DNA of 64,000 nucleotides from Polystyrenella longa (lineage in GTDB: Bacteria > Planctomycetota > Planctomycetia > Planctomycetales > Planctomycetaceae): the NCBI RefSeq assembly GCF_007750395.1, contig NZ_CP036281.1, positions 2,379,001-2,443,000 of the forward strand, read 5' to 3'. The notes under the pieces are model-generated. The model was not told the DNA's origin. It did not search any database and saw only the letters and a program-made list of their open reading frames with translations. Every line of letters starts with the position of its first letter. Within the stretch, counting starts at the first letter, position 1. Shown one piece after another: positions 12,088 to 46,439 of the stretch. Made by a program: the position numbers and the translations under genes.

Positions 12088-14181
12088 TCAGTTTAGATCT
12101 TGATTGACCTGGAATAATAGATAGTGCACTTCTCCTAAATCTTCTGGAAGGCTTTTGATCCATTCCTTCATTTCCAGAATATTTGGCTGTGTGATTAAAA
12201 GTTCGGGGTTTCCCAGGGGACGCGATTCGGCAATCAGGTCTCTGTTCAGCAGCTCCTCCTGCTCTTTCGGCAATTCGATGTGATGGCCGATCTGCTGTCC
12301 ATCGACGACCACTGGCCCTTGGAGTTGCTGGCTAAACTGTGGAATTTTTTTTAGATGGACTGTTAGGGAGGCGGATTCTGGCAAGGGTTCATTTCGAAAA
12401 ATGAGCAGGCAGAGTTCCGTGCCTGCAGATTTGATTAAGGGGAAAGCAAGTTCGTTTTCTCCAGGAAGCTTTAGTTCTTTGACCGGGTTGGTGTCTGGCT
12501 GTGGTGATTGCAATACATTGATTTCTTGTACTTTGCTCTCCGGATTCGTTCCGATCCAGACGACATAGGGATAAATTGCTTCTTCAAACTGGAAATTGAG
12601 TCTGATTGAATCCCCTTCATTGATCGTCTGTGGGAGATTGATCAAATCAGTTTCTAGATGTTTCTTTCCTCCGGGATAGAGCATAATCTGCCAGTTCACC
12701 TTGCCTGCCAGGTCAGACGAGGTGGTATAGATCGACGGATTCAATTCAGACGATTCCTTCGTGCGTAACATCATGACGGCAATCAGGACCGTCAAACATA
12801 TCGCAAACAAAACTGTGGGAATTGCCCAGTTTGGTCGAATGTTAAGAATCACCGAACGAATTGATGATTCGGCCTGTTCTCTCGGATAAGATCCTGACTT
12901 TACCTTCAGGAGTGCTTCTTCAAATTCACGAGCAGATTGAAATCTTTCCTGGGGATCTTTCTTTAGAGCTTTCATACAAATCAATTCGACAGAGACCGGT
13001 ATGTCGAGATTGACTTCGCGCGGGGAACGATTAGGTATGGGTGAGATCAGTTTCGCGAGTACCTGCATCTTACTAGACCCGACGACGGGTGGTTCCCCCG
13101 TCAGAAGAGTGAACAATAAACCGCCCAGTCCATAAACATCGGTCCGGGAATCGATTGATCCCAACGAACGGTCCGCCTGTTCCGGTGCCATGTATTGCGG
13201 CGTGCCAATGATCTGTCTGTCATCTGACTTCTCCAAGGGGCTTTCGTCCACTTGAAGCGACAGGCCGAAGTCAGTCACTTTCACCTGACCATAACTGTCC
13301 ACCAGAATGTTTCCGGGTTTAATATCTCGGTGAATGATCCCGCGGGAATGAGCATGGTCAATCGCCCTTGCAATAGTGGCCATGATCGGAACGATTTCTT
13401 CCACGGAAAGCCTACCGTGAATCGTTAACTTATCGAGGTCTTTGCCATCGATATAGTCCATCACTAGAAAGTAGCGGTTATCGTTGGTGCGACCCAAACC
13501 ATGAACGTCGACAATGTGCGGATGATGCAGGCTAGCAACCATGCGAGCTTCGCAGAGAAACCGTTCTCGCAATTCGTCATTATTCCGGCCGATTTCGCCC
13601 AGAATCTTGATCGCCACCGTTTTTCCAAGACTCTTTTGAGTTGCCCGGTAGACCTTTCCCATCGCCCCCTCACCCAATTCTACATCGAGTTGATAGTCGG
13701 AAAAGGGAAGTGGCGCGGCAGTCAGTGGATCACTTAGCGGGATGGTTGAATTCGAGGAAACCGTACTTACGTCTCGCTGAATCTCAGACAGATCAATTTC
13801 TTCCATCCAGCGGGCGACTTCAAACTGACGCTGAAGTTTCTCTCGCCATTCAGGAAAACGGGATTCAAGGTCTGCTGATCTTTCGGCAACATTCGCATCC
13901 GTTCGGTTTCGGAACTCGCCGTAAATGAGATCAATACTCTGTTCCGGATGTTGTGAAAGCTCGGGGTAGTTTTCGAAATACTGTTCAACGGGAATCCCCT
14001 TTCCCTCAGCCCATCGTTCGGATTGATCGATCAACAAGACATCCGTAAGTTCCTGTAAATCGAGTTTAGTGGACTCATTGAGAAAATCCTTTAACACAGG
14101 TGATTCACTGCCACTCTCCCACAAATCGAGATACCGATCTGCGGCAGAAAGCTCTTCTTCCGGATGTTCTTTTGAAAACAT
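12088..14181 (-). CDS. Membrane Ser/Thr protein kinase downstream of ECF sigma gene
   Basis: 697 residues from the ATG at 14181; a longer frame to 14259 is open but adds an implausible N-terminus. An acidic helical N-region of about 160 residues precedes the kinase (about 162-430): GEGAMGKVY, K192, HRDIKPGN (D286), DFG 304-306, APE 332-334, so catalysis is expected. One transmembrane helix lies at about 450-472 (WAIPTVLFAICLTVLIAVMM). About 220 beta-rich residues follow on the far side of the membrane (SIRLNFQFEEAIYPYVVWIG), possibly a ligand- or protein-sensing domain related to DUF4384-type modules. The gene is last in a same-strand series with the sigma factor (124-base gap), the caspase-fold protease and the large CHAT protease. 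It may transmit an envelope signal to the paired sigma factor; the operon is inferred from order and strand only. Confidence 0.93.
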   Translation of the reverse strand: MFSKEHPEEELSAADRYLDLWESGSESPVLKDFLNESTKLDLQELTDVLLIDQSERWAEGKGIPVEQYFENYPELSQHPEQSIDLIYGEFRNRTDANVAERSADLESRFPEWREKLQRQFEVARWMEEIDLSEIQRDVSTVSSNSTIPLSDPLTAAPLPFSDYQLDVELGEGAMGKVYRATQKSLGKTVAIKILGEIGRNNDELRERFLCEARMVASLHHPHIVDVHGLGRTNDNRYFLVMDYIDGKDLDKLTIHGRLSVEEIVPIMATIARAIDHAHSRGIIHRDIKPGNILVDSYGQVKVTDFGLSLQVDESPLEKSDDRQIIGTPQYMAPEQADRSLGSIDSRTDVYGLGGLLFTLLTGEPPVVGSSKMQVLAKLISPIPNRSPREVNLDIPVSVELICMKALKKDPQERFQSAREFEEALLKVKSGSYPREQAESSIRSVILNIRPNWAIPTVLFAICLTVLIAVMMLRTKESSELNPSIYTTSSDLAGKVNWQIMLYPGGKKHLETDLINLPQTINEGDSIRLNFQFEEAIYPYVVWIGTNPESKVQEINVLQSPQPDTNPVKELKLPGENELAFPLIKSAGTELCLLIFRNEPLPESASLTVHLKKIPQFSQQLQGPVVVDGQQIGHHIELPKEQEELLNRDLIAESRPLGNPELLITQPNILEMKEWIKSLPEDLGEVHYLLFQVNQDLN

Positions 14182-14305
14182 GCTCGACTCTGGAAAAAAA
14201 AAGGATAGAGAATTAAGGGGGCAGATGAAGTTCCTGTTCTGATTTATCGTAAACAACACAAAAACAGGACGCTAAAATGCTGTCTTTGATGAATTCTCCT
14301 TAAAA

Positions 14306-14899
14306 TCATTCCGTAGCATAAGTTTCCATCTTCTCGACTACCCGTTTGAGGGCCCGTTCGAACTGCTTTCGGAGGGCATCCGGACTGGAGTCGATCTCCA
14401 GCTTCTCCGTGATTTCGCTCCAGCCCATCCTCTGCTGGCGACTTTCAAGTATCTGTACTTCTCGTTCGGAAAGGTTCTCGCGAATCATCGCCATAAGTTC
14501 CGCATTGGATACGATCTGACTAGGCGTCTGAAGCTCCCCCGAAATGTTCTCTGCGAAGTGAGTGTCGAGGCTGGTATCGCGGCGCATGTCCCGTCGTTGT
14601 GCACGCCAGAACCGAGCGAGATCAGCCACCTTGGCTCGAACCATTGTCTTGAGCAGAGCGACCAGCTGATTCGGTGTTTCGAATTCGTAATTTCCCGCCC
14701 ACAAACCAACGAATAACTTCATCATCACAGACTGGCAGACATCGCTTTCGCTCACAACACGTTTGAGCCGATGATCAAGGAGCGAAAAACGAACTTCACG
14801 GCGAATCGCTTCGCCATAATCGTCGAACAGTTGTTGAATCGCTTCTTCATTTCCAGCCTGTACATTGGAAATCAACGATTCGAAATTTGACTTCTCCAT
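14306..14899 (-). CDS. ECF-type sigma factor between caspase-fold and kinase genes
   Basis: 197 residues from the ATG at 14899. A longer frame to 15049 would overlap the protease gene and adds an unrelated, Lys/Cys-rich N-terminus. Region 2 is recognisable (VSESDVCQSVMMKLFVGLW, NQLVALLKTMVRAKVADLAR). Region 4 is NLSEREVQILESRQQRMGW followed by a recognition-helix segment (SSPDALRKQFERALKRVVE). This is the planctomycete ECF type, commonly encoded next to a WD40 or TM kinase as here. Its position inside the protease run suggests it controls, or is controlled with, the exported CHAT and caspase-fold proteases. That is an inference from neighbourhood. Confidence 0.92.
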   Translation of the reverse strand: MEKSNFESLISNVQAGNEEAIQQLFDDYGEAIRREVRFSLLDHRLKRVVSESDVCQSVMMKLFVGLWAGNYEFETPNQLVALLKTMVRAKVADLARFWRAQRRDMRRDTSLDTHFAENISGELQTPSQIVSNAELMAMIRENLSEREVQILESRQQRMGWSEITEKLEIDSSPDALRKQFERALKRVVEKMETYATE

Positions 14900-15024
14900 G
14901 GTCTGATCGATCAGCTTGGGGAGGGAATTAAAGAGGATCCTACTATGGATACAACACTTAGTCTTCATCATACCGCTGATCTTATTAGGTATACAACTAG
15001 TCTTTAAATATTGAATCCTAGATT

Positions 15025-17268
15025 TTACTTTTCCGGTACAGCCAGCCATTCAAGCGTTGCTGCTGACCATGTTTCGTCATAAAGCTTGACCGGTCGACGT
15101 CGACGGTCGCCCCGAGTTGTATTCTGAAAATACGTTTGCTGCATCAGCAAGTGGCCTAACGACTGAGACTCTTCAGTCTTAAGTGACCGCGTGGTCTGTA
15201 GGCTCGGTTGTGATAGCATGTAGAAATCATTCTGTGTACGTGTCGCAAGCACTACTGCCCAGCGCTGACCTGGAAAATTCGCCGCATCACACTCAAAGCA
15301 ATCCGTCAGGCGAGACTCTCCTGGAGTGAGTGTTTGTTCGCCAATCAGTTCAACTCCGTCCTGGAACGGGAGAATCTGATCGATTCCCATATTCGAATCG
15401 ATCGAAAGCACACTGATGTAAACTGGAACTCCCGAAGACTCTCGATTGGTGACTTCGAAGGCATAAAGAGCCCCCTGCTCCATAATGAGAGCATCTTCTT
15501 CCGGTTCCCAGCGATGCCAGCGGTGAGGAGTAAAACCATCGTCTTGGAATTCATCAATCGCAACTAGATCCAGTGAGACATCGATAGCAGATCCAGATTG
15601 CCCGCGTGCGTTACCTGCCAGTGCGACCTGTGTGTTTGAAATTCGCAATAGGTTTCGAGCTCGGTTGATCGACCGCAGAAACTGTTCCAGCGACATCGGG
15701 TCACTATCATCTTCTACCTGGCACTTCGCCGTTTGGATATGGAACGGCCCCCATCCCCCTTTCAATGAAGGGGGGATATCACCGCGCGTGGTAGTTGCAT
15801 CCTCAGCGACGTATGCAAAACCAGTGGATGGAAAGAGAGCCGCGTAATTCCCATCAATCTTGAGGACCACATCACAAGATTCCTCACCATCTGTCCTTAA
15901 TAGCCAGGGACTTTCAGTAGATCGGGTTGTCGAGTTGATTGCAGCGGCAATTGCAGGGGGGACAAGTTCGCTTCCAGGCGGCAAAACAGAGACGTCACCG
16001 CTCTCGGACGTGACCTGTTCGATTCGTAGTCTCAACTCAAAACTACCGTGATGATGGAACCGCTCGACGGCATAGCCACGCGTAAACTTAGATGGGAATT
16101 TATCGATAATCTGTTTATCGCCATTCCATTGGAAGTAGCTCGCCGTTCCCGTGGCACCGGAGGTACTGTCCACAAGGAGCCAGCCCAGTGAGTTCCCGTT
16201 GTGACCGGAGAGTTCACCCGTCAGTTCGATTTCAACCGCAGCGTCATAGACTTCATAAATCGATCCCGCCGTTACGCCATGAAACGCCCCCGCTTTGAGC
16301 AGCATTTTGGAACGATCAGTGCCGTTCTTCTGCACTTCCCAGTATTGTGGTCGATCAACTCCCGTCTTTCCCAGGATACCCCCCGTGATGAGACTCGACT
16401 CCCCTTCCAACTGAGGTACAGGCGCCTGTGAAACAGAAGGATCACGGCGATAGCATGAGACTATTGATTCCCGTAACAAACCGTAAGAGAGTTTTGAGAT
16501 ATTGTTTTCCTGATTGAGGACCTGTACCAGAAAGCGAGTCATGAGGCCATAGCTCTGATCTCCATCACGATATTCGGGTTCGACTTCACGCGCTCGACAT
16601 GCGGCAAGCATCACGGCTCCGGAGGGTAGTTTTCTCTTTGTTAGGTTACCGCCAATTGATTGTACTGGTTCCTGCTCCCTAATAAGCTTTCGGAGTTTCG
16701 TTGTCCCGCGGGCACCACTACCACTGTGACAACAATCAAGTACCAGCCACATATGTGCTCGATTCTCGTGACAGATCTCTTCCACATATTGGAAAAGTTC
16801 GTCGTCACGGAGATCTTCTTCGCTCCCCTGCTTCGACGCGTCATGTGGTACGAGTGTTTCATCGAGACCGTCGGGTTCGTCGTGATTCGGACCAGACGGT
16901 TGATCGGGGACTTGTGAGCCATGCCCACTGAAATGAAAAATTACCTGGGCGGCTGGCAATTCATCAGGTAAAACGCGAACGCGATCGGACAATCGTTTGA
17001 GCGCCTCTCGGATCGCCGTACCTGTTGCCTCTTCGTTAGTAAGCGTTTCAATCTGATTGGCTTCGAAGCCGAATCGTTCTTCGAGCAGTTGCCGCATTAC
17101 TACAACATCATTTGAGCAGCCATCCAATTGCTCGCCGCTACTAAGGTGAGCGTATTTTTCGACACCGACGAGTAACGCGAACCGGGGAACGTCGACTTCA
17201 GCCGCACGGCTGAAGGATTGCATTCCAAGACCGATTATAATCATGTGCAGGAGAAAATAACGAATCAT
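15025..17268 (-). CDS. Exported caspase-fold (peptidase C14) protease with DUF4384-like C-terminus
   Basis: 747 residues from the ATG at 17268 (a TTG 12 bases upstream is also in frame). A signal peptide is visible (YFLLHMIIIGLG to the SRAA cleavage region). The metacaspase-like p20 domain covers about 28-290: FALLVGVEKYAH, HFSGHGSQ with catalytic H116, and LVLDCCHSGSG with catalytic C180. The acidic S1 pocket typical of Arg/Lys-specific metacaspases is plausible (DEPDGLDETLVP) but not proven. A middle region (about 300-520) is unassigned. The C-terminal 200 residues resemble DUF4384 (LYAFEVTNRESSGVPVYISV, ILPFQDG), a module often paired with caspase domains in bacteria. The gene lies 50 bases downstream of the 2109-residue CHAT gene and 125 bases upstream of an ECF sigma gene. 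Export of a caspase-like enzyme is less usual than cytoplasmic location. Confidence 0.93.
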   Translation of the reverse strand: MIRYFLLHMIIIGLGMQSFSRAAEVDVPRFALLVGVEKYAHLSSGEQLDGCSNDVVVMRQLLEERFGFEANQIETLTNEEATGTAIREALKRLSDRVRVLPDELPAAQVIFHFSGHGSQVPDQPSGPNHDEPDGLDETLVPHDASKQGSEEDLRDDELFQYVEEICHENRAHMWLVLDCCHSGSGARGTTKLRKLIREQEPVQSIGGNLTKRKLPSGAVMLAACRAREVEPEYRDGDQSYGLMTRFLVQVLNQENNISKLSYGLLRESIVSCYRRDPSVSQAPVPQLEGESSLITGGILGKTGVDRPQYWEVQKNGTDRSKMLLKAGAFHGVTAGSIYEVYDAAVEIELTGELSGHNGNSLGWLLVDSTSGATGTASYFQWNGDKQIIDKFPSKFTRGYAVERFHHHGSFELRLRIEQVTSESGDVSVLPPGSELVPPAIAAAINSTTRSTESPWLLRTDGEESCDVVLKIDGNYAALFPSTGFAYVAEDATTTRGDIPPSLKGGWGPFHIQTAKCQVEDDSDPMSLEQFLRSINRARNLLRISNTQVALAGNARGQSGSAIDVSLDLVAIDEFQDDGFTPHRWHRWEPEEDALIMEQGALYAFEVTNRESSGVPVYISVLSIDSNMGIDQILPFQDGVELIGEQTLTPGESRLTDCFECDAANFPGQRWAVVLATRTQNDFYMLSQPSLQTTRSLKTEESQSLGHLLMQQTYFQNTTRGDRRRRPVKLYDETWSAATLEWLAVPEK

Positions 17269-17318
17269 GATGTGAACCAACTGACAGAGTAGATCACTTG
17301 AGAATAACGTTTAAATAG

Positions 17319-20300
17319 TTAACGCCAGTCGCCCGATAATACAAATGCCGCCCACGATTCAGGATTGAGCCTGTTTGCCGCAACTGCAGGTTGATTCGGG
17401 CGGACACGACGATCTCCACGGACGAGTTCGGGGTTATCAATCGCTTCGGGAGTGTTCAGCAGAAAAATCTGTGCTTCACGCAAAGCATCGAGGCGACTCA
17501 TTTTCTTTTCCCAGTAATTACGATAGAACCGTTCCATCAGGACTCGAGTCGCCTGATCAGGCACTTGCCACAAACTAGTGATAGTCGCTCCAGTTCCCGC
17601 CACCTGGAAGGAGCGTTGTATTCCGATCAATCCCTCGCTTTGAATTACTTCTCCCAGTCCCGTTTCGCAAGCTGAAAGTACGGCGAGATTGACATGTTCC
17701 ATGTCGAGGTTGACGATCTCATCCGCTGTGAGAAGACCGTCATTGTTTTCTTCGTGATCACGGTTATTGGCACCTGCGAAGGCGAGTCCTGACATTAATC
17801 CCGGATTAAATCTCCGCAATGAATTACTGCCAGTAGCTTCATTATCATCGATAAAGTAACCGTGAGTGGCAATGTGCACCTGACTGCAGTTAGCGATCTG
17901 TTTGCGAAAGGCGAGTTCAGATGCCTCTGTTTGAGCCAATTGCTGTAATTGTTCAGCAGTGGCTTCGGGATGTCCCTGTTGAAACAGAGTAGAAATTGCA
18001 TTTATCTCATCACGAGTTCCGGGGAGTGGAGCAAAGTGTGAGTCGGTATGAAGAGAGCGGTTCAACACGTTTTCGACGAACCCTTCATTCGGAGTCTGGT
18101 CATAACTGACATCTCCGACCAGTAACATGTTTCCAGAACCAGAATCTTGGGTCGGCTCGTTCCTCTGTACTAATAGCTGTGGCACAGGGATGACGCTAAG
18201 CTTGTGTTGTTCAATCAGGTATTGCTTTCCGTCAACTGTCGGTAAGGCATGGAAGGGCAACTGTGCCAGAATGCCATCGGGAGAGATGAGAATCAGCTCA
18301 GGCTGCGCAAGCTTGGGAACCAGTGGATCCCACAGGATCGTGCGGAGGAGATCTCCCGCCTGCTTACTGTCAGGCGAAGTGCCCAGCGTGCTGCGCCAGA
18401 TTGAAAGAGCCTCTTTAACGCGGTTTAAACGATCCAAAGGGAAAACTTCAACATTGCCATTCTGTTGAATGAGAGTTGCGAGAATGATCGGTTCCTCTTC
18501 CCCAGCCACTTCCGCGTTCTGGGGTTGATAAACAAAGTAATCGACAAAAGTAGCCTCTTCGGGGATGGAATCCATGAAGTCCGCCAAGGTTACCGGATTC
18601 CTGAGGTCCATATAGGCAATTCGCGCTGCACTCAATTGGCTTTCGAGCAGATCTTTGAACTGCGTTAATTGGTCCAGTTGACGTATTCGGTCGATATTCT
18701 GATTACTGGAAGGGCGTGAAACGGTCGCCAGCTTAGTCGAAAGCCGGTCGAGTTCTATATAGAAAGGCGCGACATTGGCTTCCTTTGCCCGTTGGTGAAT
18801 CGTCCGTTGGCGAACTAGGCCAGACCCTTTCCACTGCAATATCTGATCGTAGCAGAGGCTGGCTGAATTAGGATCCGGGACGGCGATTGTCAGGAAGAGG
18901 TCGAGGCTGGACCGCATCGTGTTGGAATACAACATCTGCTGACGAGGTGAGAGAAGATATGCCGAACGTTCGACCAGTCTTCTTGTATTGTTCAGAGCCT
19001 TAAGCGATGATTGCAGAGCGTTGTTCTGGTCTCCTGTGGAAAGATAAACGCGTGAGAGTGTTTCAAGGGCGCGGCAGTAAGGGAGCGAATCTTCTCCTTG
19101 CTCCTGCAGGGCTAGATCAACAGCTTCTGTCGCGTAGGTCGACGCCTTTTCCAGATCAGTCAGTTGCAGCCACAGGTCAGCATAGATAAGGCGTAGCGAG
19201 ATCTCATCGTGGGCGGAGAATTGTTTGGATTCCAGTAAGCCAGTTCCAATAGTTACAAATTCTTTTGCATTGTCTAAGTTTCCTGTTTTTAGGCTGATGC
19301 GGGCAACCAAGGCTACCGTTTTAACGTATTCGAGATTTTCTTTCGTCGACAGAATGTCTGATGCTGATTCAGCGAAAACGAGGGCTTCGTCCAATTGACC
19401 GCGTCCGAGATGATGTTCGGCCAGGCTTTTCAAGGTGGATGGAAAATAAGCCAGGAACGGTTCCGACGGTTTCTTGCTCTGTTCGAGTGCTTCGTTGTAT
19501 AGCTGGAGAGCCGTTTCATGCTCACCGAAGTAATCGTTCACTTCCGCCTGACAAGTCAACATTTCAATGACGAATGGATCGTCCCGGTAGTCCCCCGTTT
19601 GCGTAACGCATTCGCGGAGAACCTTATCCGCCATTTCGTAGTCACCCAGTTCAATATACGTTCTGGCTAGTGGTGGAAGAGTCTTGACGAAGTTCAGCTG
19701 TCCCACTTTCTGGGAAGCGAGTCCTTCTCGTAATGCTTCTGTGAGCGCCTTGCGAATCGTCATTTCCAAGTGATACTGCCCCGATTGATGCATTTGAGTG
19801 GCTAAGGCAGGATAATTGGCATAGTATCCCTGATATGGATTCACTTTCTGGTAACGCCAAATGCTGTCAGTAAACCACGCCAGACTCTCTTTCGACCCCG
19901 CTTTCTGCAAATGGTCACCAATTACGTTTGCTATTTCGCCCGTGCGATCTTGATTGTTAATCTGGTCAAACAGACGAAACGAACGCTTTAAGTATTTGAT
20001 ACCTGTTTCAAATTCGCCCTCACTCAGCTTTCGTAACCCAATGAAACGTGAATCCTGAGCGGCTGTTGGCACATCAAGTTGTTTCTCAGGGATTTCCTGA
20101 AGTTCTATTAGTAGGTCGATTACGCCTTCGGGCCTTCCGGCATATTGCTGCAAGTAGGCACGCTCTGACCGGTCAGATTGGACAACTTTCGCTTCAGAGC
20201 CGAAGATTGCTGTTGAGATCGTAGTCAGCCGGTCAGCGACCTCAAAAGCTTTCTGGTATTCCTCTACTCGAAACAGCAACTGTCGAAGTTCACGGAGATC

Positions 20301-23300
20301 GGCGACGATCATGACTGAATCCGATCCGAGCAAACGGGATCGGACTTCGATATTGGCTTCAAGTAACGGGATCGCTTCGGCTAACTTATTTTCCTGGATA
20401 AGGGTTTTAACCTGCTGAACCTGTGGGGTCACCGAGTTGTATTCTTCCAGTTCTTCCACAGTCATTTCGGCCAGTCGGGCATACACGTCAACGAGCCGCT
20501 GATCGATTCTCACCTGTGGATCGTCAGGTCCAAGCGTGGCAAGCGTCATTTCTGCGCGTATTCTCTGCTGGTCGGTTGTGACGTTTGGATAGCCGAGACG
20601 ACTGGCGTTGTTGATCACCCATTCGTTTGTGTCCAGTGGGATGGAGCCATCGTCGCCATATAGTTTACGCTCGATCTGCAACACCTCTGTAAGAAGGGCA
20701 AGTCCATCTTCGGGTTGCTTGTTTTGCAGGAACTGAATCGCCTCATTTCTCATTTGCTCGCGCTGTGTGATGAGATCTTCTTTTTCTTCCAATGAAAGTT
20801 GTTCAGGTTGATCAGTCAATCGAGATTCAACAGTGGCGATGGCTTCGTTAACGAGTGAACTTGCTTCGGTCTCGGTCAAAAGTTGTTTGAGTTCAGCAAG
20901 AACATCCGCGTTACCAGTTTCGCCTATCAACAAAGAGGCTCTCCGGGCGATTTCCTGACTGGGATGAAACAAATAGACTATTAGTTCGTTAGCTTCCGAA
21001 TCATTCTCATTCATTACCATACGTTCGCGATTGAATTCGTCTTCATTCATGAACAGAAGCGACACCAATTGCGGAACATGATCTCGGCTGTATAAGCGAA
21101 CCAAGTTTTCCTCGTGATTAAGCATATGCCTCATCTGATTTTCGTCCGCGCTGTGCGGAGTAGATTCGAACGCCCAGAAGAGCCGAACGCCCATGCTTTG
21201 AATATAGGGGTTCTCATTCTTCAGCATACGGGATGCGATTTCGAGAACCTGTTCACTTGGATTGTCTTGATCTTTTTGTCCGTTTTCGTCAACCATGTTT
21301 AACTTTTCTGGTCCACCATCGGCGTATAGGAACAAATTCTTGTATTGCTCATCGGATTGTGGAGGGAAATGGTGATGCGAACCGTCGATCATGCCTATCC
21401 GGTGATTTCCTTGATCGGTTTTAAACAGGAACGACTCAAACTTCTCGCTGAGGGTCAGGTCATCCGGTTTTGTCCACGGACGGGCTTCGTTGGCTTCGAC
21501 AATGGCACCGGTCATACTGGTACCATCTGTAATCTTGTTGAAGTCAACGCGATCCGTGAAGACGGTGCCCTTTCCCTGTACACTGACTACACGAGTCATA
21601 CCCGCTGGGAGTTGCTGTTCAGAATCACGGAAAACTGCGGGCATTTTTTCAATTAACTGTTTATTGTGTTCACTGTCCCACGGTTCATCGAAATGGAACT
21701 GATCGTAGAGTTCCTGTTCTTCCAGCATTGGTAAGATGCGAACACGCCAGCTGAGCCCGGCTTTTTTGTCGGGAGTCGCGATATCGGGAGGAAACTGTGC
21801 ATAAAGATCGTGATGGATGTGCCACGCCAGCATAATATTTGAAATAGTGCTCGGCGCGGATTCCTCATCACTGCCAACAAACAGTTGTTTGTTGGCAAAA
21901 ACTTTCCAAAAGGCTGTATAAACAGTCTGATATCGATCACTTTCCAATTGCTCCAGCACTTCAGGAACTTCGGGTTGAGAAATTGAATAGGTTTCAAGGA
22001 TCTGTTCATCAATACGGGATTCGGACGGATTGAGTAGTTCGTAATCAATATCATTTCCGTCGTTGATGGAGAACAGATTTTGATAAAAATCGTCCGGTAC
22101 CATCTGAGAAAATCTGACCGAACCGTCCATGAATCCGAGAATGTTCTGGCTCCCGTGTTCATGAAGTTGCTTGCTCATCTCGGACTGCAAACTCAGGTCT
22201 GCCGGCTGTGTCCATGGAACTGGCTTTTCGGCTTCAGTCAGTGCGATCGTATTTGATAATCCATCAGTGACATCAGAGAGACCTTCCGCCGACGTGAGAA
22301 CAGTACCGTCCCCAGTAATTCCTTGGACTCGGGTTTCGAAAACATTCTCTGAGTTCCAGATATCCTGATAAACCAAAGGGACCTGGGTAAGCAATTGGCG
22401 ATTGTGCTCACTATTCCAAGGTTCGTCGAGCTTGAATTGTTGATAGAGTGCCTCGAGGCCGAGGTGAGGAAGTATTTGAACGCGCCAACTGAGAAGAGGG
22501 TTTCCGTTTGCATCAACCAGGTCTTTAGGAAGCTTCTTCTGCAGGTCTGCGTAGTTATGCCAGGCCAGCATTACCTGCTTATAATTATTGGTAAGCTGCA
22601 TTAGACGCGCCGATTCACGCGCCATCTGCACAGCAACAGCCAATAGATTAGAAGTACTGGAGAGTGCACGACTGAACGAAGGGGCCGAATCGTTAATCAG
22701 GACGAGTTTATCTTTTGACGGTTCGAAAGCACCTGCAAATTGAGCGATCAACTCCAGTTGGTTTTGCAACCTCTTGATCAGTTCGTCGGGCTGACTCGGA
22801 TTCTGATAGAACGATAAAGATGCAAGAAATTCGCGCACAAGTTGCTCTGGGTCCTGTGCCCAGGCGGCAATTGCTTCCACCGCCGGTTGATCCGAAATCT
22901 GCACATTATCTCGAGGTATCAATCGAATCGTCATCTCATTAGACTGTTTTCCAAACACCGACTCGAGCGATGCGACCGACAACTCGGAGGGAATGGTCAT
23001 CACTTGTCGAATGCTCTTCATTTTTGCGAATGGGGGAGCGACATCAGCGAACATACGTAACTGACCCACATCGATCATCGCAGCAAAATTGACGTTAGGA
23101 TTGAGGTTGCTGGCATAGTTATAAACCCTGCCCCGCTCCGCTTTCTCAGCGGCATTCAGCAGATTAGCGGGGTCATCACCACTGAGAATTAAAGTGGTTG
23201 CCGAAGGGAAGATCAGATTTCGAAGACCAAATATTCCTTCTTCAACATCATCTGTTGCCTCATAGTAAGGTAGTCCTGAAGAGTGTTCAGTCAATTTGGC

Positions 23301-33476: not shown

Positions 33477-34772
33477 TCAATATTCCGGTTGCTCCACTCG
33501 GCCAAAGAACAGGACTGCACCGGTGCGGTGGTCTCTGATTAAGAACAGAAAAGGGTGATCGGCATGGAAAGTGAGGACTGGTTTTCCCTGTTTTCCGGGG
33601 CCGGAAGGCGCATAACTATTTATGACGGCCGTGGCTGCTGCAGCTTCAGTCCCCTTTTCATCCACCTCGATGAAAGCTTGATGAATCACATTGGAGATTT
33701 TTAACTCTTGACGCTGAGACATGGCAGAAAAGTCGGCACCATTACTAAATGCTGATTTCATGCCTAACGACTTTAGAGCGTCCGAGAGTCTGAACTGAGA
33801 CCGCATCATGAACTTTGGTATTCGAGTATTCACTGGTCTGTCTCGTTGCAACTGCCTCATCCATTCATTGAAACGGCCTAGAGTCAGTTTGTCTTCTAAG
33901 GTCGAAAGACCATCAGTATTTATGGGAAGAATAACCACAATCGACAATTCCTGGTCTTGATAAGGAATTGAAAGGATTTCAGCATCCTCATTTCTGGTGT
34001 ACCAGAACTTCTCCTGCTGCTGCATTGTTGGTACATAAACTTTGTTCGCCGGCGTGAGGTGGAATGGAGACTTTCTTGTTGATTCTTTACGGAAAGCAGA
34101 TGACCATTTACCTTCGAAATGAATTGCATTCGTTAGTACTATCTTAGTGTCGGGATCCAAAACTCCAGAGCCAATCAGGTCAACAATCTTGTGCTGAGTC
34201 TCCTGCTTAACCCACTCATTGATTGCTTTCCTTGCCTGCTCTGGTTCGGAGAAGTCCAGAGTCTCTAACTCGGCACGATATTTAATTCTCGTCAGTTGTA
34301 GAAAATCACTCTCGAGCTGAAATTCTTTGTGTCCCCACAGTCGATTTGCAGTACAAAGTGAATATCCATTATGGCTGCCCTTACTATTTAACAGGCTTAA
34401 CAGCGTGGAGAATCCTTCATGTGCGTTCTGATGTTTACTCAAGTGTAATACTGAAGCCATTTCTCGTTCTGTGAGTCCCTCAGCCCCTCCGTAGGTCATT
34501 GCTAACGCCGTCGAGATGCTCGCTGGTGAAAAGAACAGATTACCCTTTTGCTGTCGAACCTGCTGGTACAGGTCAAAAGCAAACTGGTTGCTGGACCTGA
34601 CCACCTGTTGCGTTTCTTCTGAAATGAAAATCTTGTTTCCGCGCGGTTCGGAGTTGCTATTTATTAATTTGGGAACCAGGCGTGGCTGTTTAGCTTCCAC
34701 TGGATCAGCGAATATAGTCATTCCTAAACTGATCAATACCAGACAGTATCCAGTGTTTCGTAATGTTCGCAT
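33477..34772 (-). CDS. Exported serpin (serine/cysteine protease inhibitor family I4)
   Basis: 431 residues, ATG at 34772 with AGGGATAAA upstream. A signal peptide (VLISLGMTIFADPVEA) precedes a full-length serpin domain: NLFFSPASISTALAMTYGGA, TNAIHFEGKWSSAF, VVILPI and the C-terminal signature FHADHPFLFLIRDHRTGAVLF (shown here in two parts: FHADHPFLFLI, GAVLFFGRV). The reactive-loop hinge is VDEKGTEAAAATA, the small-residue pattern of inhibitory serpins, in contrast to non-inhibitory members. Counting from the hinge puts P1 near the Ser-Tyr-Ala-Pro positions, but this needs alignment. It lies among genes for five predicted cysteine proteases of clan CD. Serpins of animals and poxviruses can inhibit caspases, so a local target is attractive but untested. 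Confidence 0.93.
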   Translation of the reverse strand: MRTLRNTGYCLVLISLGMTIFADPVEAKQPRLVPKLINSNSEPRGNKIFISEETQQVVRSSNQFAFDLYQQVRQQKGNLFFSPASISTALAMTYGGAEGLTEREMASVLHLSKHQNAHEGFSTLLSLLNSKGSHNGYSLCTANRLWGHKEFQLESDFLQLTRIKYRAELETLDFSEPEQARKAINEWVKQETQHKIVDLIGSGVLDPDTKIVLTNAIHFEGKWSSAFRKESTRKSPFHLTPANKVYVPTMQQQEKFWYTRNEDAEILSIPYQDQELSIVVILPINTDGLSTLEDKLTLGRFNEWMRQLQRDRPVNTRIPKFMMRSQFRLSDALKSLGMKSAFSNGADFSAMSQRQELKISNVIHQAFIEVDEKGTEAAAATAVINSYAPSGPGKQGKPVLTFHADHPFLFLIRDHRTGAVLFFGRVEQPEY

Positions 34773-36634: not shown

Positions 36635-36696
36635 GAAATCACTTTCTGAATAGTAGGGGCTAAATGAGAAAGAAATGCTGCAGGACACTCATTTAA

Positions 36697-39595: not shown

Positions 39596-42481
39596 TTATC
39601 GCCAATCACCACTCAGCACAAATGCAGCCCAGAAATAAGGGGGGCTGTTTTTCGGATGGCTTTCTTCTTTTATTTGTTTATTGCGGACGCGAAAATCTCG
39701 GCGTGGACCTTCTCGCAACATCCAGAGTTGGGCTTCACGCATGGCGGGAAGCATGTCCATCTCTTTTCTCCAGAAGTTATCGTAAAAACGTTCCATAAGG
39801 CGTCGCGTCTGATTGTCATCTACTTTCCAAAGACTGGAGACGACAGTTTTTGTACCGGCGACTTGAAATGCCCGTTGCAGTCCCAAAACTCCTTCACCGC
39901 CGGCCAATTCTCCGAGACCAGTTTCGCAAGCGGATAACACGGCGAGTTCAACCCGGCGAAGATCCAATTCGGCCACATCAAGAGCAGTTAAAACTCCATC
40001 GTCTCCTTGGTCGACCGGTTGATTGGCTCCTGCAAACACTAAACCCGATAATAGACCGGGGTGATATGCCATTTCAGATACGGAAGAGTCGCCCCCACGA
40101 CCTTTGGTCATTTCCATGGCTGATCGCAGTTCTTCCGGAGCAAAAAAAGCGTGAGTGGCAAAATGCAAATACTCAGCACCAGGTGCTTTGTCTCGTACAT
40201 TCCCTTCCGATGCATTTCCGTCAGTAAGTAATGTAAGATTGCCATCGTCGTAGACTCCTTTGAAGGAGTTCGCGATGGTAAGTGCTTCGCCACGAGTCGC
40301 GGGGAGATCTGACCAATGGTAGATTCCGCCCGCCCTTCTCCGGCGCCTCGCTTTAGGCTTTGGAGTTTCAGGTTCCTGCTCGGGAGTGACCAGATTCTCA
40401 AAATCGACTCCGCCCACAACAAGCATTGCCAAGGGCTCATTATCCGGAATATCGAGTGAGGGTGGTCCCAGAATCTGCGGTAACAATTGAGCGACCGGTA
40501 GAATGGACAACAGATGGTCTTCCAGTAGATACGTATCTGCCGCGCTGCCTGGAAGGGCCGAGAAAGGAATGCGATTAAGGGAGCCATCAGGTGAAACGAG
40601 TACCGTCATATCGGGTGAGAGATGTTTAGCGATTGGTTCCCAGACAAGTTCACGAACTACCTTAGCAGCAGATCGCTCCTGTTGATGATTTCCAGTTGTC
40701 TGGAGATATCTTCGCCATTCGTTCACCGCTTTATTGATCGGAACCGATTCGCCTAAATCGATTAATACAGGTTTATTCCCTTTCAGGGAGACAAAAACAG
40801 CGATGTGTTGTTGTCCTGGCTCAGTCAACGACGGACCTGTCGGCGCTACTTGTAGGAATTCAAAATAATCGACCAGAATGCAGTTCTCGGGGAAATTGGA
40901 TTTCCAATGATCATAGGAAAACTGCCCAAGGGTTGCCGCATTCGACTTCTCATGGTTGATCAATTGTTGCTCAAGAGCTTCCTTTTCCTCCTTCAATATC
41001 TGAAATTGTTTCTCACGCGATTCTTCTCCACGCGAAGCGGTCGTCATGGCGAGGTTGGTAAGCTGTAATGTTGCTGTTTGTAGTTTGTGAAACACGTCTC
41101 TTAACTCGGGATGAGAACGGCTTAATTTCATCCATCGTTCACGAGAAAACACACTTCCTTTGTACCTCAATACCCATTGGTAAAGACTATTAGTATCAAG
41201 TTCGCTCCGATTGGATATCGAAAGGAGATGGTTTAAATATGTCAGGAACTGGGAGTTCGTTTTAAGCTGCTGTTGTTCTGTTTGAACCCGGCTCGCCATT
41301 TCCGCAGTGGTCTGTGCGGTGTCTATCGCTTCCAGTAAATAGGGGATCGACTGAGCATAATCCCCTTGCGCATCGTAAAGACGAGCTAAGTCATACTGTG
41401 TGTCGGCAGTATCAAGATGATGAAGTCCAAACAATTCTGTTCGCAGTACTAGAGCTTCTTCAAGTTGTTCTTCTGCCAAGTCATATTTCTGCATGCGAAC
41501 ATTGTGCAGCCCGGAATTGTTCAATGTCCTCGCGTAATCCGAATGTTGCTTGCGGTAGACTCGTTCAAAAATGGCTAAAGCTTGCTGGTGTAATGTCTCT
41601 GGTTCCTGCAATTCACCTTTGCGACTCAATAGTAGCGCCATTGATTCCAGGACATGTGCATACTCAGGTGAATTATCTGAGTGGTTATTCTTCGTGAGCA
41701 ATAACGATTCTTCTAGCAGCTTTTCAGCTTCATTACTTTCCTGTAACCGTTCATGAACTAACGCCAGATTGTGAAGGCTGGGAGCTAAAGACTCAGGATT
41801 GGATTCCGGCTGTCGATAAATAGCAACTGTTTGAAGATAATACTTTTGAGCCTCAGAGTAATTACCCATCTGATAAAAAAGATTGCCTAAACCGTTGTAG
41901 GCACCTGCGAGATCATCGGGAGAGTCTTCCAAATCCTTTGAGAGCGTGAGCGCCTGGTTCAGGTTAGATAGAGCCAGCTGATAATTCCCACGTTCAACAT
42001 ACATGCTTCCTAAAGCTGTGTAGCAGGCAATCGTCTCTTGATCGGGCTCCTCAGATTTTGAAAAAGAATGTTCTTGTGCTGTTGTCAAAGCTGCTTCGAA
42101 CATCTGCTGAGATGATTCATAATCTCCCAACTGAAGATAAAGACGCCCCAAATCTGACTGGAGACTTCTAATATGCAGCCAGTCTGTAACCTCATCAGAG
42201 CCAGCGTCTGTCTTGGGAAATTCCTGGGATAAACTAAGATTGAGGCTGGCAACTTGGGATTGTAGTCCCTCGAAATCAGTGGGGAGCTCCCGCTCATAAG
42301 AAAGCCGAGGCTCAGCGTAATCGTCTGTCGCACGGGAGGGGGCGAGAATGATCTGCGGCTCAAATACAGCCTGAGCCCACGTGCAATCGCTGCACCACAA
42401 ACAGCAACTGGAAAATCCCAGCCAGAGACACCAGGAATAAATTGATGATCGTTGATTTTTGGATGGAGAGCTCAAAGACAT
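39596..42481 (-). CDS. Exported TPR-CHAT protease
   Basis: 961 residues from the ATG at 42481, with a GGGGGAG ribosome site just upstream; a TTG 24 bases further up is also in frame. A signal segment (SWCLWLGFSSCCLWCSD) is followed by seven or more TPR units (DLGRLYLQLGDYESSQQMFE, AYNGLGNLFYQMGNYSEAQK) to about residue 420. A coiled-coil linker precedes the CHAT domain at about 560-960, with FATHAFFAPEE (H777) and LSACETGLGEL (C852). The dyad is intact. The C-terminal half (VAGTKTVVSSLWKVDD, FWAAFVLSGDWR) is very similar to that of the 2109-residue CHAT protein, so the two are paralogues. Target unknown; an envelope location is inferred. Confidence 0.94.
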   Translation of the reverse strand: MSLSSPSKNQRSSIYSWCLWLGFSSCCLWCSDCTWAQAVFEPQIILAPSRATDDYAEPRLSYERELPTDFEGLQSQVASLNLSLSQEFPKTDAGSDEVTDWLHIRSLQSDLGRLYLQLGDYESSQQMFEAALTTAQEHSFSKSEEPDQETIACYTALGSMYVERGNYQLALSNLNQALTLSKDLEDSPDDLAGAYNGLGNLFYQMGNYSEAQKYYLQTVAIYRQPESNPESLAPSLHNLALVHERLQESNEAEKLLEESLLLTKNNHSDNSPEYAHVLESMALLLSRKGELQEPETLHQQALAIFERVYRKQHSDYARTLNNSGLHNVRMQKYDLAEEQLEEALVLRTELFGLHHLDTADTQYDLARLYDAQGDYAQSIPYLLEAIDTAQTTAEMASRVQTEQQQLKTNSQFLTYLNHLLSISNRSELDTNSLYQWVLRYKGSVFSRERWMKLSRSHPELRDVFHKLQTATLQLTNLAMTTASRGEESREKQFQILKEEKEALEQQLINHEKSNAATLGQFSYDHWKSNFPENCILVDYFEFLQVAPTGPSLTEPGQQHIAVFVSLKGNKPVLIDLGESVPINKAVNEWRRYLQTTGNHQQERSAAKVVRELVWEPIAKHLSPDMTVLVSPDGSLNRIPFSALPGSAADTYLLEDHLLSILPVAQLLPQILGPPSLDIPDNEPLAMLVVGGVDFENLVTPEQEPETPKPKARRRRRAGGIYHWSDLPATRGEALTIANSFKGVYDDGNLTLLTDGNASEGNVRDKAPGAEYLHFATHAFFAPEELRSAMEMTKGRGGDSSVSEMAYHPGLLSGLVFAGANQPVDQGDDGVLTALDVAELDLRRVELAVLSACETGLGELAGGEGVLGLQRAFQVAGTKTVVSSLWKVDDNQTRRLMERFYDNFWRKEMDMLPAMREAQLWMLREGPRRDFRVRNKQIKEESHPKNSPPYFWAAFVLSGDWR

Positions 42482-42673
42482 TCTCCCCCTTGTGTTAAAT
42501 CTCAACCGGAATGAACAATACCAAACTCCTGTTCCATTATGTCTACTCCAAATCTCTTCCTGAAACCTGTATCATCCGATTATCGCGGTGAGTATAAAAT
42601 GATCCTCTGATAAAAGAACAATTCAGCGTAACATGCCGTCCAGAGTGCTTCTCTCAGTATGAGTTCAAAATGG

Positions 42674-43191: not shown

Positions 43192-44967
43192 TTATTTGGA
43201 TTCAATATCCTGATTGAACGTTCCCGTCTTTAGGCGTTCGGTAGATTGCTGTTGGTATTTATCCAGGAGGGTCTCCATCAAAGCTTCGGAAAATCTTTTA
43301 TCTGAAGATATTCTGGAATAGACATCGGCATAATCAATCGTGGAGTAGGTCAGCCCATTCAAATCGCTGGTCCAGATGTAGCCCACATTCTCGGCCTGTG
43401 ATCGGAGCAAGGCCGTCTGTTCTGCTCTCAGTTCGCTCTTGCAGGATTCAGCAAACAGCAATGGGAAAACCTGTCCCTGTTTTCCTGCTGAGAGGATAAG
43501 CTCAACAAACTCCTGTTTGGTGGTTCCCTGGTAAGGAACGATAGGCTTGCCTTTCTCATCCGTACCTAAAGTATTGTCAGACATTGGTTCCAAGGTCCCA
43601 GTTTTTCCCCAGCCCATGTCCTTATCGAGATAGCCAAGTACTTTTATGCCCAACGTATCATTTGCACTTGGGTCTAAGGTATCGTCCGCACTTGGATCCA
43701 AGGTGTTGTCAGAACTAGGATCCAATAAGTCCTCATTATCGAGCAGGTCTTCATTACCTAAAGTCTCGATGGGGTCCGGTAAGCCGAATTCTTCAGGAGT
43801 GCCAATTAATAGATTCAGAGCCCGCTCGGTAAACAGGCTCTCTTGGGATTTCGGATCCAATTGAGCGAGCCGAATGGGACGGTTCTGCTCTCCCAGTACC
43901 AGTTCAACCACAGCGGTCTTTTCTCCAACCAATAATGGTTCTTTTGATTTCGACAAGATGAGCTTTCCCTCAGTGAACACGATTCCTTCACCCGAAGTTG
44001 TCTGTAACGGTTGCTCGAGTCGGTCGACGAGAACAATCTCAGTTCCATGCTTGACTAATAATAATCGCCCCAGATATTCAGCCTGCAGACGGCCGTTGAG
44101 TTCGTAAACTTTCCCACCATGACATAAGTCGATCGGGTTACCAGAGGCGTCAGTCAGTAAACGTCCTTCTTTGATGAAGGGACTGACTTGTTGTGAGAAG
44201 CTTTCTTGCAGTTTGGTAACTAACTGATCGCGAGTCATTTTATCGGTATCAACCGAAACTCGTGTGGTCAGCAAATAATCACGACTTCCGTGGGATTTCG
44301 TCACGAGCACATATTCGTGGTTCTCAGACGGAAATAGCTGGGCGACTTTGGACAACACAGCCTGTAAAGTCTGGGGACTCGCTAAAGGCCAGGCTTGCAG
44401 GATGGATGTTTTGAGAGTGGGAAGTTCAAAGCTTTCTTTTTGATACTCTTTCCCCGTTCTGGTGAATTCCAATTCTGAATTTCTGGCCAGAATGTTGGTG
44501 ATAATGACAACGGGGGTGTTGATCTCTGCAGCTGAATTGGCTCCAGAATGTTTGATCGACTGTATGTCCTTGTTCACAGCATCTTGGAACTGGACTGCGT
44601 CCCGTTCGATACTTGCTGCCAAAGCTTTTATTTCGGGATGAGAGGAGGATCGAAGCCAACTGGTAATCGTCTCCACATTTCTGGCACCTTCCCCTGCGTA
44701 CGAAGTGTCATTGGCGTAATAGATCAGCACCTGAGTCTTAGCAGGATCACCAGTCACCGAATGAAGTTTGAGCGGTTTGTTCAGATCACGACTCTCTTGT
44801 TGCAGTTGTTGTAAAACAGCTTTGCCTTGTTGATTCGATTTTATATTGGGCTTCTCTGCAGCATGCGACAGCAAGGACCCACCCAGTGTCAAATTAAACA
44901 GGCTCAATAGAAAGAAACAGCAGGTCCATGCTCTGCTATGGAATGGTCTCATTTGTAACGTACTCAT
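43192..44967 (-). CDS. Exported protein with a divergent caspase/clostripain-like (clan CD) fold
   Basis: 591 residues, ATG at 44967 (a second ATG five codons in). A signal peptide is visible (CCFFLLSLFNLTLGGSLLSHAAE). A first strand-helix unit (KTQVLIYYANDTSYAGEGAR) is followed by EYVLVTKSHGSRDYLL with candidate catalytic H226, then an insertion of about 280 residues, and VFPLLFAESCKSELRAE with candidate catalytic C509. Strand-HG and strand-xxC in this order, followed by AENVGYIWTSDLNGLTYSTI, match the clan CD plan seen in clostripain- and caspase-type peptidases. The insertion includes an 8-residue acidic repeat (DPSADDTL). The assignment rests on motif order and not on overall similarity. 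It would be the fifth cysteine protease of the locus. The small membrane protein follows it on the same strand. Confidence 0.8.
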   Translation of the reverse strand: MSTLQMRPFHSRAWTCCFFLLSLFNLTLGGSLLSHAAEKPNIKSNQQGKAVLQQLQQESRDLNKPLKLHSVTGDPAKTQVLIYYANDTSYAGEGARNVETITSWLRSSSHPEIKALAASIERDAVQFQDAVNKDIQSIKHSGANSAAEINTPVVIITNILARNSELEFTRTGKEYQKESFELPTLKTSILQAWPLASPQTLQAVLSKVAQLFPSENHEYVLVTKSHGSRDYLLTTRVSVDTDKMTRDQLVTKLQESFSQQVSPFIKEGRLLTDASGNPIDLCHGGKVYELNGRLQAEYLGRLLLVKHGTEIVLVDRLEQPLQTTSGEGIVFTEGKLILSKSKEPLLVGEKTAVVELVLGEQNRPIRLAQLDPKSQESLFTERALNLLIGTPEEFGLPDPIETLGNEDLLDNEDLLDPSSDNTLDPSADDTLDPSANDTLGIKVLGYLDKDMGWGKTGTLEPMSDNTLGTDEKGKPIVPYQGTTKQEFVELILSAGKQGQVFPLLFAESCKSELRAEQTALLRSQAENVGYIWTSDLNGLTYSTIDYADVYSRISSDKRFSEALMETLLDKYQQQSTERLKTGTFNQDIESK

Positions 44968-45023
44968 CAGTTCGCCCTATTTATCTGATTTAGATATTAA
45001 ATATGAAACTGGTCCTGTTAGCG

Positions 45024-45288: not shown

Positions 45289-45320
45289 AATGATGATCTC
45301 TCAATAGACCTTAACTGGCT

Positions 45321-46439
45321 TTAGCGGCTCCAGAAATTAGGAACAGTTCCCAGGTGTTTTCCACCACCCGATTGAAAACCCTGATTCTGCTGCTGCTGTT
45401 GTTGCCCTGGACGAACCCAAACTTTGCCATTGGATTGTTGGACGATGCGTCCCCCTTTCTTGGTGTTAAAGTTGTAATAATGTTGTTTCGTGCGCGGGTT
45501 ATATGTTTTTTTGGCCTGTCCAGCGTATTTCCCTCCAATGGTAACCCGACCACCTTTGTTGATATTGACATCATTGAACTTTCGATAGCCCAGGTTTTTC
45601 ATACGATTTCCACTGGCTCCCTGGTATTTGGGGGGCTGAGTTTTGGGAGGAGGATTCCAGCCAGGAGCGGGTCCAATAATGGTTTCAGATTCCTTCAGTT
45701 TAAAGTTCCCTAAAAACCCACCACGGCTTGCTCCAACGAGCGACGTTAATGCTTCAGCTTCCTCATCAACTTCTTCACCGACTGATTGTTCCGCCTGATC
45801 AATCTTACTATTGAGCCAAGTCTTCAGATTTTCTGGCAATTCGGAGATACCGACATCCACTCGTAGTTCTCCAAGTGTTTTGCGGTCAGAAATATTCTCT
45901 GCCAGTTCAATGTTGTCGGCCAGTTCCTGAGCAGCGGCGACATCTTCAGGTGGAGTGTCGACGTTAATCTCGGCAGGAGGAATGATGGCTCGACTTTCTC
46001 CACCCAACATCGTGGCTGCCTCCAGTTGCGATGTCAGCTCTTCGTTATTAGTCGCTTTGGCCACTTTGTTCAATCGAGCTAGGTTGTCCTTATCGTTTTT
46101 GTTGACAGCCATTTTCATGGCCATCTGTAACAATCTGTTGGAATCGATCTTGGGATGATTCCGTAGCAGGATGCGTTCCGCTTCTGCCAATTGCAGCGCG
46201 ACATCGGTTACACCAGTGGCGTTCCCTTCAGCCAGTGCGTTGGTCATCAATTCGAAATCGACCATCCGTGTGAACGCGGGGTCATTCCAATCAGAAAAAT
46301 CATTCTGTACTTCTTCTTCAGCCATAAACAATTCGATGGGAGGTTCTTCATCTGCCGGTGTTTCCGGTTCAGGCTCTGCGGAGAGTAAGAGTGCGGAAGT
46401 CATACATACGATGACACTGGTAAAAATGTGAATTCTCAT
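45321..46439 (-). CDS. Exported helical-domain protein, unknown function
   Basis: 372 residues, ATG at 46439 with AAAGGACC upstream. A signal peptide (FTSVIVCMTSALLLSAEP) precedes an acidic Pro-rich linker. The helical segment at about 77-146 (TDVALQLAEAERILLRNHPK) is similar to one in the Q/P-repeat protein at 31254-33236, aligned over roughly 70 residues with shared DVA-QLA, LLR-H and LARL/LDRL positions. A second helical region (150-245) and a glycine-rich basic C-terminus (GGRVTIGGKYAGQAKKTY) end in a Gln run. The last part resembles small surface proteins. It has its own terminator at 45258. Function is unknown. Confidence 0.86.
   Translation of the reverse strand: MRIHIFTSVIVCMTSALLLSAEPEPETPADEEPPIELFMAEEEVQNDFSDWNDPAFTRMVDFELMTNALAEGNATGVTDVALQLAEAERILLRNHPKIDSNRLLQMAMKMAVNKNDKDNLARLNKVAKATNNEELTSQLEAATMLGGESRAIIPPAEINVDTPPEDVAAAQELADNIELAENISDRKTLGELRVDVGISELPENLKTWLNSKIDQAEQSVGEEVDEEAEALTSLVGASRGGFLGNFKLKESETIIGPAPGWNPPPKTQPPKYQGASGNRMKNLGYRKFNDVNINKGGRVTIGGKYAGQAKKTYNPRTKQHYYNFNTKKGGRIVQQSNGKVWVRPGQQQQQQNQGFQSGGGKHLGTVPNFWSR

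Follow-up and report, generated by a model that had tools for sequence, protein, structure and literature searches.

What is known of CHAT proteases comes mainly from separase and from CRISPR systems, and the Csx29 system acts in the cytoplasm. Kinases and extracytoplasmic function (ECF) sigma factors are abundant in planctomycetes. In type III-E CRISPR, the TPR-CHAT protease Csx29 is found with Csx30 and the ECF sigma factor CASP-sigma, and RNA-guided proteolysis of an inhibitor frees the sigma factor (PMC10028731). In kinase-regulated ECF factors, another sequence stands in place of the acidic DAED motif, and the charge is regained when a Thr or Ser is phosphorylated (PMC8103513). Some caspase homologues of prokaryotes bear N-terminal signals, the export of bacterial caspases was discussed in 2012 (PMC3501461), and caspase-DUF4384 fusions are described in cyanobacteria (PMC7475262, PMC8283722). 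Here we analyze a run of four genes (positions 12088-23648) in Polystyrenella longa that brings such families together. It lies within a region of interest (12088-46439) of a 64,000-nt window, i.e. the whole stretch of DNA that was analyzed, of a 6.1-Mb single-contig genome (G000 in our comparisons). On balance, we regard the run as one form of a recurring planctomycete module, composed of a putatively exported TPR-CHAT protein and a membrane-bound DUF4384 kinase, which are joined at some loci by an ECF factor and here by a caspase as well.

The run resembles each of the described systems in part. As with Csx29, Csx30 and CASP-sigma (PMC10028731), a TPR-CHAT protease is encoded together with an ECF sigma factor; unlike in that system, a signal peptide is predicted for the protease, and the partner of the sigma factor is a transmembrane kinase. 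As we read it, the module would be a counterpart of the Csx29/CASP-sigma circuit that works beyond the cytoplasm and apparently does without CRISPR. None of the three CHAT proteins of the region falls within the Csx29 type: CHAT-B gives a distant match to the Csx29 model at 38 bits against a cut-off of 300, while CHAT-A and CHAT-C have no match at E 0.01. Pfam recognised no Cas7-11, Csx30 or CRISPR array in the 20 window proteins, no search aimed at them having been made. The ECF gene adjoins a transmembrane kinase gene and its DAED motif has become a Ser-containing one, as in EcfP/PknT and EcfK/PknS (ECF43, ECF59, ECF60; PMC8103513). In contrast to these systems, DUF4384 forms the ectodomain of the kinase, and predicted exported clan CD proteases are encoded alongside the ECF/kinase pair; moreover, the window motif, SESD, retains two acidic residues, whereas that of EcfP, STTA, is uncharged. 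The arrangement of the kinase, with an N-terminal kinase domain inside, a membrane helix and a sensor part outside, is that of known planctomycete membrane kinases with periplasmic repeat domains (PMC11032199). The sensor of those kinases is in most cases WD40 or TPR rather than DUF4384, and the available part of the source describes no protease neighbour for them. If its weak DUF4384-like match is accepted, the window caspase shares both the signal and the caspase-DUF4384 architecture of the homologues and fusions cited above; no link to TPR-CHAT neighbours or DUF4384 kinases is described for them in the available parts of PMC3501461, PMC7475262 and PMC8283722. Among the literature matches listed, which leave most subscription papers outside their coverage, there was no description of an exported TPR-CHAT protein with a receptor kinase.

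The four genes follow one another in the order TPR-CHAT, caspase, ECF sigma factor and Ser/Thr kinase, with gaps of 38 (39 in the count of CHAT-C14 neighbours given below), -25 and 46 bp as measured from first start codons; thus, the ECF open reading frame (ORF) overlaps that of the caspase by 25 bp and is followed by the kinase after 46 bp. A preliminary description of the region, made from the sequence alone, had proposed that the first operon ends in an ECF/kinase pair, and the Pfam scan of the 20 window proteins confirms both genes. The four genes form a coherent unit with predicted exported clan CD proteases, and the recurring CHAT-C14 linkage reported below supports it. By domain and His/Cys dyad, CHAT-A, CHAT-B and CHAT-C all belong to the CHAT peptidase family (PF12770), with proteolytic activity predicted, and the protein encoded at 15025-17280 belongs to the caspase family C14 (PF00656), its domain scoring over the cut-off. 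These calls bear out three CHAT proteases and one caspase-fold protease with intact dyads, as previously described. Counting from the first start codon of each ORF, as we do here, leaves the residue numbers of CHAT-A and CHAT-B as given there, while the earlier numbers were 8 lower for CHAT-C (H777/C852) and 4 lower for the caspase (H116/C180), a difference of start codon choice only. Both His and Cys are invariant in a 7-row CHAT alignment (CHAT-B not among the rows) and in a 7-sequence C14 alignment. The CHAT profile had no match among PDB chains at E 0.01.

CHAT-A itself is a fusion of DUF1559, usually a pilin-like domain of planctomycetes, with TPR and CHAT parts. A full-length ortholog at 52% identity in the congener G018 retains this fusion.

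We located domains in 101 genomes of the family. The kinase of the run has, in this order, a kinase domain, a membrane helix (best hydrophobic window at 480) and a DUF4384 domain (PF14326) predicted by hydropathy to lie outside. When the 20 window proteins were searched with a hidden Markov model (HMM) built from 15 other kinases, the DUF4384 of this kinase was matched at E 2.8e-13 and 39 bits over residues 533-641; the Pfam model itself gives E 0.05 and 14 bits against a cut-off of 27. At E 0.05 or better, DUF4384 has 27 matches in 20 of the 101 genomes, and 19 of these matches lie within 10 kb of a CHAT (0.16 expected), in 16 of the 20 genomes and in 14 genera. The proportion is 15 of 19 for matches above the Pfam cut-off and 18 of 26 without the Polystyrenella genome. 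Leaving out that genome and one of two matches on contig G043:C40, 25 carriers were read in context, namely: 15 kinases in which a membrane helix precedes a C-terminal DUF4384, 2 C14 proteins and 8 others, 6 of which stand beside a CHAT. Seven of the 15 kinases abut a CHAT on the same strand, and 2 more lie on the same strand within 2 kb. Viewed from the CHAT side, a kinase is found directly adjacent on the same strand for 4 of 52 planctomycete CHATs. The corresponding figures are 3 of 167 for the remaining ORFs of those loci and 1 of 652 for the ORFs of serpin loci. These four kinases all match DUF4384 (E 2.7e-9 to 0.0095, two above cut-off); among the 8 scanned of 33 kinase matches, the kinase of locus L190 does so as well, and the three that lie at a greater distance from CHAT give no match. 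For five further kinases read in context, Pfam finds both the kinase domain and DUF4384, the latter at E 9e-6 to 0.002. Outside the family, DUF4384 was seen by eye within 10 kb of a CHAT in seven genomes among the matches listed (G216, G497, G230, G116, G404, G156 and G202), phylum-wide CHAT counts being lower bounds. Clustering of the neighbours of CHAT loci mainly gave TPR, ABC transporter and other common families.

A different layout occurs in three genomes of one genus (G088, G066 and G023; loci L300, L068 and L069). Their gene order is kinase, secreted DUF4384 protein (~260 amino acids), cadherin/immunoglobulin (Ig)-like protein (1290-1305 amino acids) and TPR-CHAT, i.e. DUF4384 is separated from the kinase and a surface-type protein is added to the unit.

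The ECF factor of the run bears the sequence marks of a kinase-regulated ECF, namely an adjoining Ser/Thr kinase and a Ser in the DAED motif. An ECF gene confirmed by Pfam stands directly upstream of the DUF4384 kinase, as in the window, in 3 of 9 kinase-CHAT loci (G034, G030 and G047). Aligned at the motif, the four ECF factors of CHAT/DUF4384-kinase operons, that of the window included, read SESD, DESD, GISD and DESD; all four thus have Ser as the third residue. The same residue occurs in 1 of 8 other aligned ECF factors, which is the second one of the window (DASD), and is lacking in the two ECF factors (L295 and L297) that lie beside DUF4384 kinases and have no CHAT.

The pairing of CHAT with caspases recurs as well. 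In the same 101 genomes, serpin, CHAT and C14 domains are present in 22, 49 and 52 genomes, respectively. Among the 30 genomes having both CHAT and C14, own genome included, 8 have them within 20 kb of each other, where 1.2 would be expected (P ~6e-6); without the own genome the figures are 7 of 29 and 1.16. These expectations, like that for DUF4384 and CHAT, assume random placement and independent genomes; contig breaks hide some of the linkage, and relatedness inflates it (three linked genomes are of one genus). In total there are 22 such pairs against 1.2 expected, ten of them in the single genome G042. Same-strand CHAT-C14 neighbours with a gap of at most 50 bp were found at 5 of 109 CHAT-bearing loci, a count in which one G018 contig figures twice (L106 and L127): the window, G051, G042, the cyanobacterium Nodosilinea and the flavobacterium Flaviramulus. 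CHAT-C14 pairs therefore recur across three phyla, and the link between CHAT and caspase that the preliminary description drew from one neighbourhood extends beyond it. By Pfam (E 0.05 or better), DUF4384 is present in 6 of 17 CHAT-linked C14 ORFs and in 0 of 30 unlinked ones; the six are L105, two in L266, L144, L196 and the window caspase, all weak or near cut-off except the L266 pair. An HMM built from three DUF4384 sequences of other CHAT-linked caspases matches the window caspase at E 5.9e-4, compared with 0.047 for the kinase-derived HMM. Among C14s that were not used to train it, it calls the domain in 6 of 14 linked and 1 of 30 unlinked ones.

The exported-looking C14-DUF4384 caspase of locus L105 (G034:C12), which stands beside two CHATs, is directly preceded by a guanylate/adenylate cyclase. 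This cyclase has a hydrophobic helix and matches DUF4384 faintly (E 0.11); possibly it represents a cyclase version of the kinase module. Tandem C14 arrays occur on contigs having no CHAT match, with nine genes in ~23 kb on G046:C8 and seven in ~22 kb on G068:C11 (partly L283 and L282, respectively), and 5 of 8 and 4 of 4 scanned ORFs of these arrays are predicted to be exported.

The preliminary description attributed signal peptides to all the proteases and the serpin. Our heuristic calls them in CHAT-A, CHAT-B, the caspase, the serpin, the protein encoded at 43192-44967 and both helical proteins, so that the claim stands for these and fails for CHAT-C, which has just a lax lipoprotein-like call. 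CHAT proteins had been taken to be mostly cytoplasmic, which does not apply to this branch. We examined the best 80 of 578 confirmed CHAT-domain matches in named genomes, which span Planctomycetota, Cyanobacteria, Bacteroidota, SAR324, Acidobacteria and others; when 9 with a cut N-terminus and 2 having no clear ORF are set aside, 56 of 69 complete relatives look exported, compared with 173 of 502 background ORFs. Within the modules, 15 of 19 CHATs are predicted to be exported, compared with 27 of 83 controls.

From the domains and dyads, the gene order and spacing, the statistical linkage, the kinase topology by hydropathy and the Ser at the DAED position, we infer the following mechanism. The TPR-CHAT protein and the caspase would act as a protease pair in the envelope, with the TPR part of the former holding a partner or substrate. 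The DUF4384 domain of the kinase would sense the state or the products of the protease, either by binding the protease or its product or by being cleaved by one of these. In response, the kinase would phosphorylate the ECF factor on the Ser that replaces the acidic residue, so that the factor could recruit RNA polymerase and drive expression of the operon. In its simplest form, the relay would run from the exported protease(s) to the kinase ectodomain, the kinase, the ECF factor and, finally, transcription, and Csx29 is a precedent for a TPR-CHAT protease that targets the inhibitor of a sigma factor (PMC10028731). More tentatively, and as something possible rather than probable, planctomycetes may widely use an exported, CRISPR-free TPR-CHAT/sigma circuit of this protease-to-kinase-to-ECF kind, in which DUF4384 is shared by the receptor and by the partners of the protease (the caspase here, a cyclase or secreted adaptor elsewhere). 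If true, this would be the first functional setting for DUF4384 and for a large class of exported CHAT proteins. With the DUF4384 receptor kinase as a strong partner, accompanied at some loci by an ECF factor, the exported-looking CHATs gain a place in a pathway, and this partnership suggests that coupling between TPR-CHAT and ECF is not confined to CRISPR.

Several observations weigh against the module as we read it. Catalysis, export and phosphorylation are predictions, and export was called by a home-made, permissive heuristic, not SignalP, with a background call rate of 173 of 502 ORFs. Export is predicted no less often for C14s distant from CHAT (18 of 30) than for those in its vicinity (10 of 17); therefore, export is no mark of the CHAT-C14 pair, and we discarded it as a hallmark of CHAT-linked caspases. 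The DUF4384 of the window caspase is weak in the Pfam genome search (E 0.0063, 19.2 bits against a cut-off of 27), several other kinase DUF4384 matches are also below that cut-off, and the caspase-derived HMM makes calls in L093, L101 and L264 that Pfam does not support and misses one strong Pfam case. The regularity of the DAED serine comes from a sample of four module ECF factors. Neither partner is obligatory: a CHAT is missing next to six of the 15 DUF4384 kinases, and no DUF4384 was detected within 10 kb of 80 of the 98 CHATs. In the congener G018, the gene downstream of the retained CHAT-A encodes a beta-propeller/PKD-like protein, not a caspase. Finally, the predicted model of the kinase ectodomain is poor (model confidence score, pLDDT, 54), and fold searches gave nothing clear, with unrelated beta sandwiches at a best Z of 5.3 and a best Foldseek E of 0.03. 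A profile search of the PDB gave antibody V domains (best E 2.5e-4), in our reading by chance or through a shared Ig-like strand pattern.

Other explanations of the run were considered. The TPR-CHAT protein and the caspase could be exported lethal effectors, released or held at the surface against competitors, predators or dying kin, with the ECF/kinase pair merely inducing them and not reading the proteases. CHAT and caspases do serve in bacterial conflict systems (PMC10907252, PMC8195603), extracellular, fratricidal caspases have been proposed (PMC3501461), and the Flaviramulus pair adjoins a trypsin-ankyrin protein and a protein with a type IX secretion system tail. We nevertheless find effectors unlikely: the DUF4384 ectodomain is common to the kinases and to other neighbours of CHAT, which suggests sensing over mere induction, and all four genes of the run are assigned, none resembling an immunity gene or a delivery part. 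A rather improbable alternative is that the CHAT, C14 and kinase families multiply in the same duplication-prone genome regions and have no shared function. CHATs do lie within 20 kb of one another on 7 contigs and C14s on 13, partners vary between species, and kinases (PMC11032199), like ECF factors, are abundant in planctomycetes. Yet CHAT-A and CHAT-C are just 29% identical by BLAST and are therefore not recent copies, the kinases abutting CHAT are DUF4384 kinases, tightly spaced on the same strand, and C14-CHAT pairs recur in three phyla.

The preliminary description had gone further: the whole 34 kb would encode a single set of envelope proteases that is under the control of the serpin. 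All of these genes do lie together in the window. The serpin was confirmed to have an inhibitory-type hinge, EKGTEAAAATAV, with small residues at P15-P9 and a full serpin domain; it is of the inhibitory type, with inhibition predicted from these features, and is predicted to be exported. Its closest solved relatives include MENT and serpin B3/B4, which inhibit cysteine proteases. In G005 a serpin gene is immediately preceded by a fragment of a C14 gene, and in G023 a C14 lies ~21 kb from a serpin. The expected P1 residue by count is Ala, neither Asp nor basic, with no Asp nearby, and relatives differ in both the length and the sequence of the reactive loop. The search for conserved co-occurrence in related genomes found serpin and CHAT scattered: they are within 40 kb of each other in 1 of the 13 family genomes having both, several of the others being fragmented, and the one is the own genome. 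The preliminary description had itself named such a result as evidence against one system. A further order-level search and the flanks of 41 serpins from relatives (up to ~36 kb, some nearly nil at contig ends) gave no CHAT, and the one C14 there, apart from the G005 fragment, is that of G023. Because of this lack of linkage and the variable loop, the serpin was ruled out as a member of the unit, and a serpin-regulated system over the 34 kb is very improbable. Neither the serpin nor the protein encoded at 43192-44967 nor any other gene of the 34 kb outside the run appears to be part of the module.

Table 1. Features of the region, with coordinates in the window.
Feature	Coordinates	Strand	Domains	Dyad or motif	Remarks
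CHAT-A	17319..23648	-	signal peptide called, two DUF1559 stretches, TPR, weak HEAT match, C-terminal CHAT (Pfam E 7e-63)	H1929/C1994	first gene of the four-gene run
C14 caspase	15025..17280	-	Peptidase_C14 (Pfam E 8e-23, 81.8 bits, cut-off 21.4); weak C-terminal DUF4384-like domain, ~residues 600-690	H120/C184	predicted exported
ECF sigma factor	14306..15049	-	Sigma70_ECF (Pfam)	SESD at DAED position	
Ser/Thr kinase	12088..14259	-	kinase 189-441 (Pfam); membrane helix ~480-498; DUF4384 533-641, predicted outside		
CHAT-B	24649..27783	+	CHAT (Pfam E 3e-46)	H893/C938	signal peptide called; divergently transcribed; association by position only
CHAT-C	39596..42505	-	TPR-CHAT (Pfam E 2e-64)	H785/C860	signal peptide not called; association by position only
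Serpin	33477..34772	-	Serpin (Pfam E 1e-122, whole model covered)		signal peptide called; judged an unlinked neighbour
Orphan protein	43192..44967	-		His226 kept, Cys509 probably kept in relative	signal peptide called

Three of the six CHATs and the sole C14 of the own genome are concentrated in ~24 kb of its 6.1 Mb, which exceeds chance. The GC content is 0.45-0.50 across 12-48 kb with no sharp break, and there is no tRNA gene in the region; therefore, no mark of a recent island is visible. A PADLOC scan of six window proteins gave matches to caspase, TPR and kinase models, none of them decisive.

The protein encoded at 43192-44967 had been described as a cryptic caspase-like protein (H226/C509), an assignment that we rejected as unproven. 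It has no Pfam, NCBIfam or PDB match, and hhalign found no profile similarity to C14 (probability 0.2%) or CHAT (0.1%), with a two-sequence profile of weak power and with other clan CD families covered via Pfam only; its AlphaFold model, with a pLDDT of 37, is of no use for judging the fold. The family occurs in 2 of 343 genomes of the phylum, own included. In the sole relative, His226 is aligned, and the Cys in its AE-x-C context is kept by eye, MAFFT not having aligned it.

The G005 pair mentioned above (G005:C294, L256/L014) consists of a truncated C14 ORF, with a PDZ-like tail by eye, and an exported-looking serpin on the same strand; it is the sole adjacent serpin-caspase pair seen. The beta-propeller membrane protein and the secreted helical proteins noted earlier between the proteases were both recovered, the former as a WD40-like protein by Pfam and the latter, a pair, with signal calls. 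The helical proteins beginning at 31254 and 45321 are mutually 27% identical, and BLAST found no match to them or to 34988-36688 in the CHAT and serpin neighbourhoods compared, with no genome-wide search made. When the WD40 protein and 43192-44967 were compared with 60 loci (L061-L120), the latter matched G035 alone.

Pfam also identifies an SSF transporter and further ECF/kinase pairs in and beside the region. One flanking pair consists of an ECF gene at 10721-11329 (+) and a kinase gene at 5398-10557 (-). The other consists of an ECF gene at 51305-51949 and a kinase-WD40 gene at 47668-51210; this ECF factor has DASD at the DAED motif and is distantly matched by the CASP-sigma model of type III-E systems, at 34 bits against a cut-off of 100.

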